This document shows positions 4,824-59,171 of a stretch of DNA of 64,000 nucleotides, one piece after another. This stretch comes from Prevotella sp. GTDB lineage: Bacteria; Bacteroidota; Bacteroidia; Bacteroidales; Bacteroidaceae. Each line of letters starts with the position of its first letter. Position 1 is the first letter of the stretch. The notes under the pieces are model-generated. The model worked only from the letters and a program-made list of their open reading frames with translations, was not told the DNA's origin and did not search any database. The position numbers were made by a program, and so were the translations under genes. The stretch covers positions 39,881 through 103,880 of the forward strand of contig JAFWQE010000179.1 of assembly GCA_017509155.1 (NCBI GenBank). The letters are read 5' to 3'.

Positions 4824-4855
4824 CCCCGCACATCTCACTGTGCGGGGTTTTTTAT
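4824..4855 (+). terminator. Rho-independent terminator after the lipoprotein gene
   Basis: CCCCGCACA (4824-4832) pairs with TGTGCGGGG (4839-4847) around a six-base loop and is followed by a T run. Confidence 0.9.
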
Positions 4856-4893
4856 TGCGCCAGAATATAGCAGCTAAACCGACGCTTTCAGAC

Positions 4894-5392
4894 ATCAAAA
4901 CCGCCAGTTTTCAGAAACAAATCCATTGATTTCGCTTAACAATTCCATTGGTTTCGTTCAACGATTCCATTGGCTTTGTTGAACAATTCCATTGGTTTTG
5001 TTACTCAAATCTGCCGCTTTTGCTGCTTGCATCTGCCGTTTTTATCATCTGTTTCTAACGGTTTAGGTCCAATGGCGGAGAGGATTAAAGCCTGCGGCGC
5101 TACACGAATGCGCACGAATAACCACGAATGAATCATGAATAATTCATCTTTCGGAAATGTTGAAGTTGCAGGAGTTCTCTGCAAGCAGAGCGTCCAAGGC
5201 CTATTGCCCTTGGCCGAGCGCAGGAGTTACAGGAGTTGCAGACTTTAGTTCTATTAGCTACATTTAGCAACTCGCGCTAAAAGTATCGTCTGTAACTCCT
5301 GCAACTCCTGTACTCTTGAACTCCACAACTTCAAGAATATTTTATGATTCATTCGTGTTCATTCATGCCCATTCGTGTAGCGCCGCAGGCGA
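4894..5392 (+). repeat. Composite non-coding repeat, copy I (order C-B-A-A'-B')
   Basis: This 0.5-kb gene-free stretch between convergent genes is built of three repeat families. C (4894-5088) has iterated CCATTGGTTTCGTTCAACGA-like units. B (5091-5147) starts GCCTGCGGCGCTACACGAAT. A (5162-5331) is a long palindrome whose arms carry GGAGTT and CAGGAGTT units, ending in their complements. B' (5333-5392) is B in reverse. The same order recurs reverse-complemented at 42789-43245 and forward at 58180-58882. No credible reading frame is present. Two small hairpins (CTCTGCAAGCAGAG, and GGCC-type near 5195-5215) sit inside the A arm. Confidence 0.85.
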
Positions 5393-5502: not shown

Positions 5503-5550
5503 CATTTATGAATCATTAAATGGGCATTCGTGTAGCGCCGCAGGCGAATA
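5503..5550 (-). repeat. Solitary family B repeat
   Basis: Minus strand carries GCCTGCGGCGCTACACGAAT followed by the GAATCATAAATG-type tail, the same unit as in the composite elements. It lies 30 bases beyond the stop codon of the M16 peptidase gene. Confidence 0.75.
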
Positions 5551-24986: not shown

Positions 24987-25080
24987 GGAGTTCAGGAGTT
25001 CTCTGCAAGCAGAGCGTCCAAGGCCTAATGCCCTTGGCCGAGCGCAGGAGTTACAGAGAACTCCTAAACTTCTGAACTCC
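24987..25080. repeat. Family A palindrome between divergent genes
   Basis: GGAGTTCAGGAGTTCTCTGC at the left pairs with the GAACTCCTAAACTTCTGAAC-type right arm. The inner hairpin block (CTCTGCAAGCAGAG, then CCAAGGCC...GGCCGAGCGCAGG) is nearly identical to that in composite copy I. Confidence 0.75.
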
Positions 25081-27383: not shown

Positions 27384-27636
27384 GAAGACGTATCTGACAG
27401 ATAGGACATGTTTGTATTAATTTTTTGAAGACATATTTGACAAATCGGACATTTTTTTTTCTTTAAGTCTGAAACGCGATATGGCATGAGCCTTTGTCAG
27501 ACTAAATGACAATTATAAAAGAACTGTCAAATTTGTCAAATATGTCCTCAATATATAAATAAAAAATATGTCCTATCTGTCAAATATGTCTTCAACACAT
27601 AAATATAAATATGTCCGATTTGTCAAATATGTCTTC
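27384..27636. repeat. Family F inverted repeats downstream of the GxxExxY gene
   Basis: Two inverted pairs interleave. The 26 bases at 27427-27452 (GACATATTTGACAAATCGGA core) are exactly complementary to 27611-27636. The 26 bases at 27384-27409 (CTGACAGATAGGACAT end) pair with 27568-27593, differing at one position. A half-copy of the same unit lies upstream of the gene at 26656-26700. The stretch is AT-rich and otherwise featureless; it fills the 305 bases between the GxxExxY and CotH genes. Confidence 0.75.
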
Positions 27637-29528: not shown

Positions 29529-29672
29529 CAACTTTTCCCTATTTCAACAAAGAAAAGAAACGAATTACACTTCATTCCATCTAATTGTTCCCCTCAATTA
29601 AAGGCGAAAAAGTAGCAGATGGCGTCATATAGGCACCACTTTTATACCCGTAATTCGTCTACCTGTTTTCTG

Positions 29673-29797
29673 GCGCAGCCACTCCCCTCCCATTTTAGGG
29701 GAGGGGTAAGGGGTGGGGTAAGCGTAAACCTTGCGCTCAATAGTTTTGTACCCCACCCCTGCACCCCTCCCCTAAAATGGGAGGGGAGTGGCTGCGC
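29673..29797. repeat. Family D inverted pair (REPIN-like), intergenic
   Basis: Two arms of 34 bases (29673-29706 and 29764-29797), each with the CCCCTCCCATTTTAGGGG core and a GCGCAGCCA end, are exactly complementary. Pairing resumes further in with GGGGTGGGGTA/TACCCCACCCC around a loop of about 30 bases. The element sits in the 635-base gap between CotH and the Nudix gene. The rest of that gap is AT-rich and holds only small repeats (AATAATTATTCCAATTT and AACCAATTATTCCAATTT near 30003-30043). Confidence 0.85.
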
Positions 29798-30097
29798 ACA
29801 GATGGAAACACACATTTGAAACGCAATACAAACCTTCATTCCTATCTTAACCACATGGAGCTGCGAACTTCTATATTGTTACCCCTTTAAAGGCAATCTC
29901 AGAATAATTCGTGGACAAAATTAAAAACAATTAAGCAGAATTCGTTTCTTCAAAAGAAAGAAACCGGAACATTCTGAATAACGACATTCAGAAATGACAA
30001 AGAATAATTATTCCAATTTCTGAAACCAATTATTCCAATTTATCCTCATTTCTTTCAAAAAAGACGACCGGCCAAACCGTTTTTCCATATTTTTCAC

Positions 30098-30713: not shown

Positions 30714-30815
30714 CCGCCAATCTCGCGCAACCATTCCATTGATTTCGTTGAACAAATCCATTGATATTGTTGAACGATTTCAATGGAATCGTTGAACAAA
30801 ACCAATGACTTTGTT
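30714..30815. repeat. Family C repeat array
   Basis: Five spaced units of CCATTGATTTCGTTGAACAA type and their reverse form (CAATGGAATCGTTGAACAAA), matching the C block of the composite elements but without B or A blocks next to it. Downstream, 30829-30885 has a short direct repeat of AAAAAAGACGCCAAATAAAA. Confidence 0.75.
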
Positions 30816-30969
30816 CTTTTTATTTGGCAGATTAAGTGAAAAAAGACGCCAAATAAAATGAAAAAAGACGCCAAATAAAATGATGAAAGAAACAGTTTTA
30901 ATTGGCACAAGCCAGCATTCGTGAGTTGAGAGTTCAGGAATAATAGTATTCAGGATTTATAATAACGAA

Positions 30970-31015
30970 CCCCATCCCTGGACCCTCCCCTAAAATGGGA
31001 GGGGAACTGCTGCGC
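30970..31015. repeat. Single family D repeat upstream of topA
   Basis: CCCCATCCCTGGACCCTCCC then CTAAAATGGGAGGGGAACTG and CTGCGC, one D arm with its terminal CTGCGC. The rest of the 31016-31202 gap is AT-rich promoter DNA. Confidence 0.7.
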
Positions 31016-31202
31016 ATTGTTTCGGCGATAGCCACTGGCTTTCCTTTCGGGGAGATGCCGGGGATGGAGTGCCAAAAAAGAGAGATTCCAACGTTCGGAT
31101 GACTCTGTTTTTGAACGCTCGGGCACCCAAATAGAAACCTCGCGAAGAGTTAATAAATCAAAAAAATAATATATATAATAAGGTGTATGAGAAAGTTTTG
31201 CC

Positions 31203-42788: not shown

Positions 42789-43245
42789 GTTCGCCTGCGG
42801 CGCTACACGAATGGGCGCGAATAAACACGAATGAATCATAAATATTCTTGAATTTGTGGAGTTCAGAAGTTCAGGAGTTACAGGAGTTGCAGACGATACT
42901 TTTAGCGCTTCTTTTTTGCATGGAGCTAATAAAACTAACGTCTGCAACTCCTGTAACTCCTGAACTCCTGCAACTCCAACATTTCCAAAAGAAGAATTAT
43001 TTATGATTCATTCGTGTTTATTCATGCCCATTCGTGTAGCGCCGCAGGCTTTAACCCACTCGGCCAGTGGACCGAAACCGCCAGAATGAAGCTGTCAAAA
43101 CGGCAGATGCAAGCAGCAAAAGCGGCAATTTGTGGAAACAAAATCAATGGAATTGTTGAACAAAACCAATGAAATCGTTGAACAAAATCAATGGAATTGT
43201 TCAACGATTTCAATGGAATGGCTGGCAGAAACCGCCAGTTTTCGT
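42789..43245 (-). repeat. Composite non-coding repeat, copy II (reverse of copy I)
   Basis: Blocks on the plus strand are B (42789-42851), A palindrome (42858-42977), B' (42988-43051) and C' (43052-43245). Read on the minus strand this gives C-B-A-A'-B', the order of copy I. The junction between C and B is also conserved: both copies read ATTAAAGCCTGCGGCG or GTTAAAGCCTGCGGCG there. It fills the whole 493-base gap between convergent dusB and the LacZ-type gene and contains no credible gene. Confidence 0.85.
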
Positions 43246-43249
43246 CCGT

Positions 43250-56822: not shown

Positions 56823-56955
56823 CAGAGAGGCAGGTTGTAGGGGAACACTGAGACACAAAGACGCAGAAGGCTTGTGCAAAGAGAAAGGCAACAACACATC
56901 AGATAGCATCGTATAAGCCCGACGTTTGTAGTCGTAACCGTCTACCTGTTTTCTG

Positions 56956-57078
56956 GCGCAGCCACTCCCCTCCCATCTCAGGGGAGGGGTAGGGGTGGGG
57001 TAAGCGTAAACCTTGCGCAAGAAAGTTTTATACCCCACCCCTGACCCCTCCCCTGAGATGGGAGGGGAGCTGCTGCGC
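56956..57078. repeat. Family D inverted pair (REPIN-like)
   Basis: Arms GCGCAGCCACTCCCCTCCCA... and ...TGGGAGGGGAGCTGCTGCGC are complementary, with GGGGTGGGGTA/TACCCCACCCC further in. The loop GCGTAAACCTTGCGC is nearly the same as at 29673-29797, and the left flank TCTACCTGTTTTCTG is shared with that copy. Confidence 0.85.
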
Positions 57079-57232
57079 ATGGTGTCTGCGGTAGCCACTC
57101 TCCTCTCATCGAAGGGGAAGGAGACGCAAAGACGCAGAGGGCTTGTGCAAAGAAAAAACTCTGTGACTCTGAGTCTCTGTGTTCATTTATCTCTCGACGG
57201 GTTTGAAAAACCGGACCAAGCGGAGAGAGAAC

Positions 57233-57334
57233 CCCACCCCTGACCCCTCCCCTGAGATGGGAGGGGAGCTGCTGCGCATGGTGTCTGCGGTAGCTGCTCT
57301 TCTCCTATCTTAGGGGAAAGTCAGGGGTGGGGTG
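57233..57334. repeat. Family D inverted pair, third intergenic copy
   Basis: ACCCCACCCCTGACCCCTCC at the left pairs with the TCAGGGGTGGGG end at the right. The segment GCTGCTGCGCATGGTGTCTG at 57267 repeats that at 57069 with the same following bases. Between the two D elements the DNA holds only spurious frames, so 56715-57376 is repeat-filled intergenic DNA. Confidence 0.75.
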
Positions 57335-58091: not shown

Positions 58092-58134
58092 TCGCCTGCG
58101 GCGCTACACGAATATGCATGAATGAACACGAATG
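58092..58134 (+). repeat. Family B repeat abutting the truncated gene
   Basis: TTCGCCTGCGGCGCTACACG and the ATATGCATGAATGAACACGA tail match the other B copies. Its left edge lies within four bases of the in-frame stop that precedes the signal peptide of the small exported protein. Confidence 0.75.
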
Positions 58135-58179: not shown

Positions 58180-58882
58180 TGAACGGATGGATTTCTGCAG
58201 TTTTCGGTCGATAGACTGGCAGATAGGAAAAAGTAAACTGGCGGATGAGAGAAACAAATCCATTGGTTTTGTCTGGCAATTCCATTGATTTTGTTCAACA
58301 ATTCCATTGGTTTTGTTGAACGATTCCATTGGATTTGTTTCGCCAAACTGTCGCTTTAGCTTCTTGCATCCGTCGTTTTCATCGCTTCATTCTGACGGGT
58401 TCTTCCGGGCGGAAAATAGAAATGCCTGCGGCGCTACACGAATATGCATGAATGGACACGAATGTTTCAAAAATGATTTTTTCCAGCTCTGCCTGTCCTT
58501 TGGAGTTTGGGAGTCTGGGAGTTTGGGAGTCTGGACGATACTTTTTGTCCATCTCCATTCTGCCGAAAGAACTATTGTCCAAACTCCAGCGGCTGAAGCC
58601 GCGAAAACTACTAAACTCCCAAACTCCAATGGACACGAATGTTTCAAAAATGTTTTTTTCTAGCTCTGCCTGTCCTTTGGAGTTTGGAAGTCTGGGAGTT
58701 TGGGAGTCTGGACGATACTTTTGTCCTGCTACATTCTGCCGAAAGAACTGTTGTCCAAACTCCAGCGGCTGAAAGCCGCGAAAACTCCTAAACTCCCAAA
58801 CTCCTTAGATTTGAGAAACTTGATAAATTATTTCTGAATCATTACATGTCCATTCATGCATATTCGTGTAGCGCCGCAGGCG
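58180..58882 (+). repeat. Composite non-coding repeat, copy III (C-B-A-A-B')
   Basis: C block 58180-58420 (CCATTGATTTTGTTCAACAA units), B 58421-58465, a family A-like palindrome 58502-58627 in which the arms read GGAGTTTGGGAGTCTGGGAG, a second A copy 58679-58804, then B' 58825-58882. The order matches copies I and II except that the A block is duplicated. No credible gene is present; the open frames here are repeat translations. Confidence 0.85.
58452..58804. repeat. Tandem duplication of about 177 bp
   Basis: 58452-58628 and 58629-58804 are direct copies, both starting ATGGACACGAATGTTTCAAA and ending AAACTCCCAAACTCC, with scattered single-base differences and small indels. The unit contains the 3' part of a B repeat plus a whole A palindrome. 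Confidence 0.85.
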
Positions 58883-58977
58883 AATAATCGTGAATGAACA
58901 CGAATGTTTCATGAATAAACTCCTACATCGATAATTCTCAAATTCGTGATAGAAAGAGTTGGAAAGTTGTCTAAATG

Positions 58978-59156
58978 CCTGCGGCGCTACACGAATATGC
59001 ATGAATGGACACGAATGTTTTAGTTTTGATGTTGAGGAGTTCAGGAGTTCAGGAGTTTCAGGAGTTGCAGACGATAGTTTTATTCCCAGCAAACCATAAT
59101 TGCAGCGCATAAAAGTATCGTCTGTAACTCCTGTAACTCCTGAACTCCTGAACTCC
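58978..59156. repeat. Family B repeat followed by a family A palindrome
   Basis: B at 58978-59028 (GCCTGCGGCGCTACACGAAT) precedes an A palindrome at 59046-59156, whose left arm GGAGTTCAGGAGTTCAGGAG and right arm CTCCTGAACTCCTGAACTCC are perfectly complementary. The inner ends are GCAGACGATA and TATCGTCTG. It reaches to 15 bases from the stop of the YARHG lipoprotein gene. Confidence 0.8.
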
Positions 59157-59171
59157 TAAAAAACTGATGTC

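Follow-up and report, generated by a model that had tools for sequence, protein, structure and literature searches.

Phased, evenly spaced arrays of DNA dyads in a Prevotella genome as possible chromosome-organising or self-spacing sites

The window (the whole stretch of 64,000 nucleotides that was analysed, from contig JAFWQE010000179.1 of the Prevotella sp. assembly GCA_017509155.1) contains three repeat families, A, B and C (Table 1). C is an element of about 220 bp, in which four Y dyads (AACRAWWYCAWTGRWWTYGTT) follow each other at exact 22-bp steps and are flanked on each side by three weaker X dyads in the same phase. B (GCCTGCGGCGCTACACGAAT), a REP-like hairpin, is present nine times in the window. 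A, a long GGAGTT palindrome, is widespread, occurs also alone and is sometimes nested in a B pair. The neighbouring genes with a Pfam match, among the subset searched, encode an M16 peptidase, a DNA topoisomerase, a glycosyl hydrolase 2, a dihydrouridine synthase and a YARHG/SH3 protein; judged by these domains, they appear unrelated to one another. In the original prediction, three gene-free stretches were thought to carry one composite of the order C-B-A-A'-B', which spreads as a unit or forms a structured RNA. The block positions given there were correct with small corrections; the exact 22-bp phasing, the even spacing and a fourth array (C array 2, 30729-30815) were absent from it.

Table 1. 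Positions of the repeats in the window.
Feature	Position	Strand	Remarks
C array 1: four Y dyads, 22-bp steps	4916..5002	+	whole element with X dyads ~4850-5068
C array 2	30729..30815	-	without B or A; overlooked in the original prediction
C array 3: four Y dyads	43137..43223	-	element ~43071-43249
C array 4: four Y dyads	58253..58339	+	element ~58187-58405
B hairpin repeat, REP-like	5090..5109	+	
B'	5371..5390	-	partner of B at 5090
Extra B	5526..5545	-	single
B	42793..42812	+	
B'	43030..43049	-	adjoining C array 3
Extra B	58094..58113	+	
B	58424..58443	+	adjoining C array 4
B'	58862..58881	-	
Extra B	58977..58996	+	followed by a GGAGTT palindrome
A palindrome (GGAGTT)	5165..5330	.	nested between B and B'
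A palindrome	42853..42981	.	nested between B and B'
GGAGTTTGGGAGTCTGG palindromes, two in tandem	58500..58805	.	between B and B'
A palindrome	59032..59160	.	beside B 58977, outside any B pair

The order C-B-A-A'-B' was found in copy 1 (C 4894-5090, B 5090, A, B' 5371-5390) and, reversed, in copy 2 (42793-43242); both copies share 281-nt arms with 83% identity, which excludes chance. Copy 3 (58180-58882) departs from this order: C and B 58424 are followed by two tandem GGAGTTTGGGAGTCTGG palindromes, which are related to the A palindrome but different, and by B' 58862, with extra B copies at 58094 and 58977. Likewise, the C-B junction TTAAAGCCTGCGGCG, described as shared by all three, is present in copies 1 and 2 and in contig C192, whereas copy 3 has AGAAATGCCTGCGGCG without the TTAAA junction; TTAAAGCCTGCGGCG was also found in genome G105, without any C in the 3 kb examined there. 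Among the further stretches examined, C-B-A-B' occurs at C37, C123, C200:19014 and C93:8500, and in C192 C-B-A runs into the contig end, so that the composite recurs at seven full places and one cut place. The proposed nested hairpins were borne out by the DNA fold of B-A-A'-B' of copy 1 (-90.7 kcal/mol, z -12.4), which was matched by none of 100 shuffles.

The idea that the blocks spread together, however, did not hold. In whole contigs, 32 of 39 arrays lack B, and A is unassociated with arrays (9 of 45; null mean 13.2). B pairs occur both with and without A (GGAGTT words in 8 of 19 pairs), and A, B and C match differing sets of genomes in a search of 398 genomes of the genus with two candidates scored per genome, in which 44 genomes, the own one included, match some part. 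The blocks thus occur independently, which the original prediction had named as evidence against itself, although their order is kept at the seven full places. The composite is real, yet it is a mosaic of three repeat families, and one composite unit was rejected as a general rule because its parts mostly occur apart. One structured RNA or element C-B-A-A'-B' can appeal to the recurring order, to the nested palindrome and to a mildly better RNA fold of C in copy 1 than in shuffles (z -2.4, 2 of 200 equal), but the parts mostly lie apart, C lacks pairing covariation (see below) and no Rfam match was found in the window at gathering scores; it is the most improbable of the readings considered here.

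The spacing of A is random (36 gaps, CV 0.97, P 0.90) and served as a control to the Y spacing test described below. A 64-nt insert in A palindromes (TCTCTGCAAGCAGAGCGTCCAAGGCC...) is 98% identical between 5169-5232 and 24993-25056, and similar DNA recurs in the genome; the A palindromes behave as if they exchanged pieces. Two other repeats were noted in the window: a dispersed palindromic family CCCCTCCC...GGGAGGGG with GCTGCGCA / TGCGCAGC (29656-29798, 30969-31056, 56939-57332), the better ones of its several copies being 82-92% identical, and an AT-rich inverted repeat at 27384-27636, whose 76-nt arms are 84% complementary and lie 101 nt apart.

At up to one mismatch, B has 55 copies in the 3.44 Mb genome, and a control pattern has none. 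Its anatomy, GTAG-CGCC-GCA-GGCG, is that of a GTAG-tagged short stem-loop, and in the stretches examined nine tail-to-tail pairs of 102-105 bp, all without GGAGTT words, have the form of REP inverted dimers, next to ten longer pairs, eight of which enclose GGAGTT words. The second stem pair is T-A in 33 cases and C-G in 26, without mismatch, at 16 loci of other Prevotella genomes; in the own genome it is C-G in 56, T-A in one and mismatched in two. By its anatomy, B is therefore a predicted GTAG-type REP. It resembles the GTAG-tagged REPs and BIMEs described in the available text of PMC3733652, which likewise carry a GTAG tag next to a short stem-loop, form tail-to-tail dimers (about 64 nt apart) and show compensated stem variants. 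In that text, the groups given for GTAG repeats are Proteobacteria, Cyanobacteria, Chloroflexi and PVC; for Bacteroidetes, CGTC repeats alone are mentioned. B, in contrast, has a Bacteroidota host, and no adjoining RAYT gene was found. Y1_Tnp matches are present, but B flanks none of the three in the own genome (one of them below the cut-off) and none of the 14 in related genomes, within 1.5 kb flanks and in incomplete MAGs; with this scope, a RAYT was rejected as the helper of B. Two Y1 transposase genes (L031 and L032; contigs C21 and C57) lie near another palindrome family, CGCCCTGAAAGGGC and CCCAGGGCGTTGCCCTGGG, which is possibly their own REP.

In whole contigs, seven of eight B clusters have an array no more than 500 nt away (null mean 2.4, P 0.0011), and the spacing of the clusters is random (P 0.46, with only four gaps). 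B adjoins 7 of the 39 arrays in whole contigs and 27 of 66 in a wider set, a count inflated by the fact that this set was partly gathered via B matches and the best BLAST score; where B comes within 400 nt (27 arrays), it stands 81-87 nt off the array edge in 13, on either side. B thus prefers or shares array flanks, which explains the C-B link of the original prediction.

The Y dyads are 21 bp long and abut with 1 nt between them, so that their centres lie exactly 22 bp apart. An alignment of 30 C copies showed a 22-nt periodic element, with steps of 22, 22 and 22 between the four dyads in all 30 arrays. Exactly four units were found in all 31 Y arrays of 662 kb of whole contigs; in the wider, overlapping set of 66, four units were scored in 63 arrays and five in three. 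In the half-site AACRAWWYCA (n=240), C3, A5 and A10 were never changed and C9 was changed twice, while R4, W6, W7, Y8 and the centre are variable. The contact bases deviate in 8 of 2112 cases, a constancy which is favoured, but not forced, by the search pattern allowing 4 mismatches per 21-nt unit. Mean pairwise identity is 0.47 and 0.54 in the X flanks and 0.26 in the outside DNA. In the profile of 66 copies, information extends from about -65 to +152 around the array start, which corresponds to about ten 22-bp units (3 X, 4 Y, 3 X); beyond these limits the profile is flat. No isolated Y site (at most one mismatch) was found outside arrays in 662 kb.

The dyads show no pairing covariation. 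In 30 arrays (n=120), positions 4/18 pair as expected (95 versus 92.8), and the inner positions pair below expectation (6/16, 32 versus 59; 7/15, 49 versus 62; 8/14, 82 versus 90); each Y dyad is kept imperfect. Because symmetric positions are conserved without favoured pairing, the constraint on C is that of a DNA dyad rather than of an RNA hairpin. RNA hairpins were rejected for C, since compensatory pairs are lacking, and so was a CRISPR array, since there are no unique spacers and the dyads abut.

The genome is a MAG of 229 contigs (82% complete, 6% contamination). A two-unit pattern with up to three mismatches matched 345 places per strand and its reversed control none; because of these 345 matches, the genome is estimated to hold 115 C arrays. 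Spacing was analysed in nine whole contigs (661,855 bp), picked for their length and because several were already known to hold arrays. Genes were called with a simple codon-bias script rather than a standard caller (371 genes in 662 kb). These contigs hold 31 Y arrays. Overall, there is about one array per 17 kb, with a mean gap of about 15 kb and none closer than about 8 kb. The 22 Y gaps span 8.2-25.8 kb (minimum 8177 bp, CV 0.33), and neither this minimum nor this CV was reached when arrays were placed at random 20,000 times in the intergenic gaps of these contigs; the even spacing of Y is thus non-random. Fifteen further gaps between the arrays listed for contigs known from searches alone were all at least 7.8 kb long (minimum 7.8 kb). 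The orientations of the arrays are mixed, and a fixed polarity along contigs was rejected.

A search of the 662 kb for tandem periods gave 47 matches for period 22 and 0-7 for every other period from 10 to 40. Of these, 27 fall on Y arrays, and the 20 others comprise four X flanks of Y, one X-only array (C138:51235, counted below), X units beside a D array (C16:106097), seven tracts that were left out and seven arrays of a second flavour, D. The D unit (GGACTCGAGTAGTWTGGCG) has a CTCGAG core; three or four such units succeed each other at exact 22-bp steps, and X-like units often adjoin them. D arrays fill places that lack Y: C138 has four, the end of C16 two and the start of C193 one. In the whole genome, the D pattern matches 44 places, counted as 22 arrays. 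C138 (G000:C138; 109 kb; gyrA-, fusA- and clpC-like genes by reading of translations) has four D arrays and one Y array. The two flavours may be regional.

Y, D and the X-only array together make 39 arrays with 30 gaps (CV 0.32; none of 20,000 placements). With Y fixed, the distance of D from all other arrays has P 5e-5 under a null that let two D arrays share one gap. The joint result was still 0 when each contig was left out in turn (2000 placements each) or other nulls were used; D and Y obey the spacing jointly. The seven tracts left out of this test (C16:57427, C193:76331, C172:27025, 27557, 27713, 37073 and 40767) were judged simple-sequence, non-dyad or very weak, a choice made after seeing them. 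Each lies less than 8 kb from a counted array, so that the minimum distance would no longer hold with them included; the Y-only test is independent of this choice, and the D flavour itself is post hoc. C172 27025-27742 and C16:57427 are simple-sequence tracts of GATGGATGAAGGATTGATA and complement-like forms, with a 22-nt period and no dyads.

Multi-site operators are common. The arrays, which are intergenic, could serve a large regulon as transcription signals, namely operators, insulators or terminators. Their context (19 tandem, 7 convergent, 4 divergent and 1 edge for Y) shows no clear bias that would argue for a role of gene orientation when compared with all gaps of at least 250 bp (80 tandem, 23 convergent, 38 divergent), and divergent gaps are somewhat under-used (4 of 30). 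There is thus no strong upstream or downstream preference, the Pfam-matched neighbours in the subset searched look unrelated and a regulon is not expected to be evenly spaced; although BrickBuilt segments contain promoter elements with bidirectional capability (available text of PMC4596501), we consider this explanation improbable.

We regard a neutral minisatellite within a MITE, on the pattern of BrickBuilt in Porphyromonas gingivalis, as very improbable. This species belongs to the Bacteroidales as well. BrickBuilt has 19 copies with 1 to 22.8 units of 23 nt between a leader and a tail, and its inverted-repeat ends are intact on both sides in four of the 19 (available text of PMC4596501); like C, it is intergenic and dispersed, with tandem units of similar length, and the main text contains 'dyad' once and neither 'palindrom' nor 'spaced'. 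One C array has five units here and four in a 96% identical contig, as a minisatellite might. However, the constant number of four units in 31 of 31 arrays, with five in only 3 of the 66, contrasts with the range of 1 to 22.8, no conserved termini of the kind expected of a MITE appear in the profile of 66 copies, the contact bases are constrained and the spacing is non-random. Furthermore, C differs from BrickBuilt as described there (PMC4596501) in its estimated 115 arrays, its four dyads each and its even spacing.

A C consensus search of 150 genomes of the genus matched the own genome alone (0 of 149 others). In the search of the 398 genomes, the C part was matched, among the matches listed, only in G245, in G171 and weakly in G180; the two-unit pattern confirmed G245 and G171 and left G180 unconfirmed. 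The composite had one match, weak and to the A part, in 79 other genomes of the order. No period-22 match was found outside the genus in 60 kb from two genomes, a sample much too small for a general statement. In viral contigs, one Y-dimer pattern and one B pattern were searched for, and neither matched exactly.

Arrays of the same phase with other palindromes occur in relatives. In G380, period 22 gave 6 matches in 113 kb (other periods from 14 to 33 at most 2) and 15 in 400 kb (others at most 3). Motif-based calls, which replaced these fifteen low-threshold matches in 20 stretches, gave 21 arrays of three other palindromes in 513 kb, with a minimum gap of 6.2 kb (P 0.001 versus uniform placement): eight of GTAACC-N5-GGTTAC (four units in six, three in two), eight of GTACAC-N5-GTGTAC (three units in all eight) and five of GAAACACTTTGTTTC (three units in four, two in one). 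No perfect F1 dyad was found outside arrays in these 513 kb, and 10 of the 20 stretches of 20 kb hold no array. Two GTAACC arrays (L299, G380:C10, at 169 and 6784), which lie 6.6 kb from each other, share their longer flanks but are oppositely oriented. G171 has 10 period-22 matches (0-2 at periods 19-25), mostly of X-type units, with one Y-type array. G059 has GGCAGCGGCCGCTGCC arrays of four or three, with period 22 narrowly ahead (5 versus up to 4), uneven motif-called gaps of 9.7-69 kb and long shared flanks; in G016, the ATTTGATGCAAAT arrays are weaker and lie 5.5-42 kb apart, without evenness. No array was found by motif in 91 kb of G251. Among 11 genomes of the genus that were sampled, five had only one period-22 match and five had none (G010, G285, G229, G127 and G009; 20-40 kb each). 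Repeats of period 18/27 or 21/28 instead of 22 were seen in L239-L240 (G285) and L245-L246 (G127, G009). As far as these sequences tell, the 22-bp phase is common to several genomes and the palindrome is not. Even spacing was seen in the own genome, and a minimum distance also in G380.

The own contig C12 and a 3 kb contig of G245 share 96.4% identity, and the G245 array has four units instead of five; the shared units differ by one substitution, whereas the adjoining 100 nt of each side differ by about ten and six. Another G245 contig, with 97-98% identical DNA, has an array where the own genome, broken there over two contigs, has other intergenic DNA and an A palindrome. Orthologous array positions between species were compared in 19 ortholog pairs only.

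Target immunity, by which a bound site blocks nearby insertion, is known for Tn7- and Mu-type elements. The main alternative is that C is a non-autonomous mobile element, whose arrays bind a transposase and whose even spacing results from target immunity over several kb. C indeed consists of arrays of about 22-bp sites with mutual exclusion, as in Tn7- and Mu-like elements, and the exclusion zone of about 8 kb fits the immunity known for Mu. The lineage-specific amplification and the one presence/absence difference between near-identical DNAs also favour such an element, and a dispersed element is suggested by the B at a fixed gap and by the long shared flanks of the G059 arrays. According to the available text of PMC8649781, the ends of Tn7-like transposons have 22-bp repeats, with four sites in one end, which likens them to C. 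Exclusion of neighbours is a further likeness. C differs from the ends described in that paper in being symmetric, without defined ends, with several unrelated site sequences and with joint exclusion between flavours. No sharp ends were seen, the homology of 66 copies fading at about -65 and +152. The two flavours exclude each other, whereas immunity would be expected to be element-specific unless it acted via the X-like units beside both. Array-free stretches are all shorter than 27 kb if the X-only array is counted (one gap is 33.7 kb without it), whereas a Poisson process predicts 7.9 longer ones. No linked transposase was found in a search that did not cover Tn7/Mu genes. A mobile element is thus possible, but somewhat doubtful.

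The reading that we tentatively prefer, at a little less than even confidence, is that C elements are DNA-binding arrays set along the chromosome for its organisation. The arrays are read as DNA-binding sites because they keep the bases expected of recognised contacts. A putative dimeric DNA-binding protein, a different one for each flavour, would coat each array, and the coated array would form a nucleoprotein knot about every 15 kb, acting as a domain boundary, an anchor or a supercoil barrier. Selection would keep the array positions apart, and the palindrome would be swapped between lineages with the phase retained. B would be a REP-like hairpin preferring array flanks, and A a separate palindrome sometimes inside B pairs. 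matS, KOPS, parS and Noc sites are dispersed, protein-bound DNA sites that shape the chromosome, as C would be; unlike C, with its evenly spaced, phased four-site arrays, the known bacterial chromosome-organising sites are, to our knowledge, single short motifs without phased arrays or even spacing. The organising role is weakened because the spacing in G059 and G016 is uneven and seven tracts were left out, and because Y arrays are nearly confined to the own genome, with one array absent here and present in near-identical DNA.

A literature search of limited scope yielded no description of C-type arrays; possibly they represent chromosome-organising or self-spacing sites of a kind not described before. 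A more far-reaching version, which we regard as rather unlikely, is a chromosome "ruler" in the own genome and some relatives. Every 15 kb or so it would carry a phased dyad array, recognised by a putative lineage-specific protein; the codes would be interchangeable (several per genome), but the 22-bp phase would be fixed, with four or three sites per array and the arrays a minimum distance apart. If it were true, bacterial domains would have regularly placed markers whose DNA code is replaced wholesale between species. Whether bacterial domains have sequence-defined, fixed borders is a long-standing question, on which evenly placed arrays would give a direct handle. If the spacing stems from target immunity instead, the genome would have preserved a natural record of that process over its whole length. 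Arrays that differ in palindrome but keep the phase would provide a natural series for studying protein-DNA coevolution.
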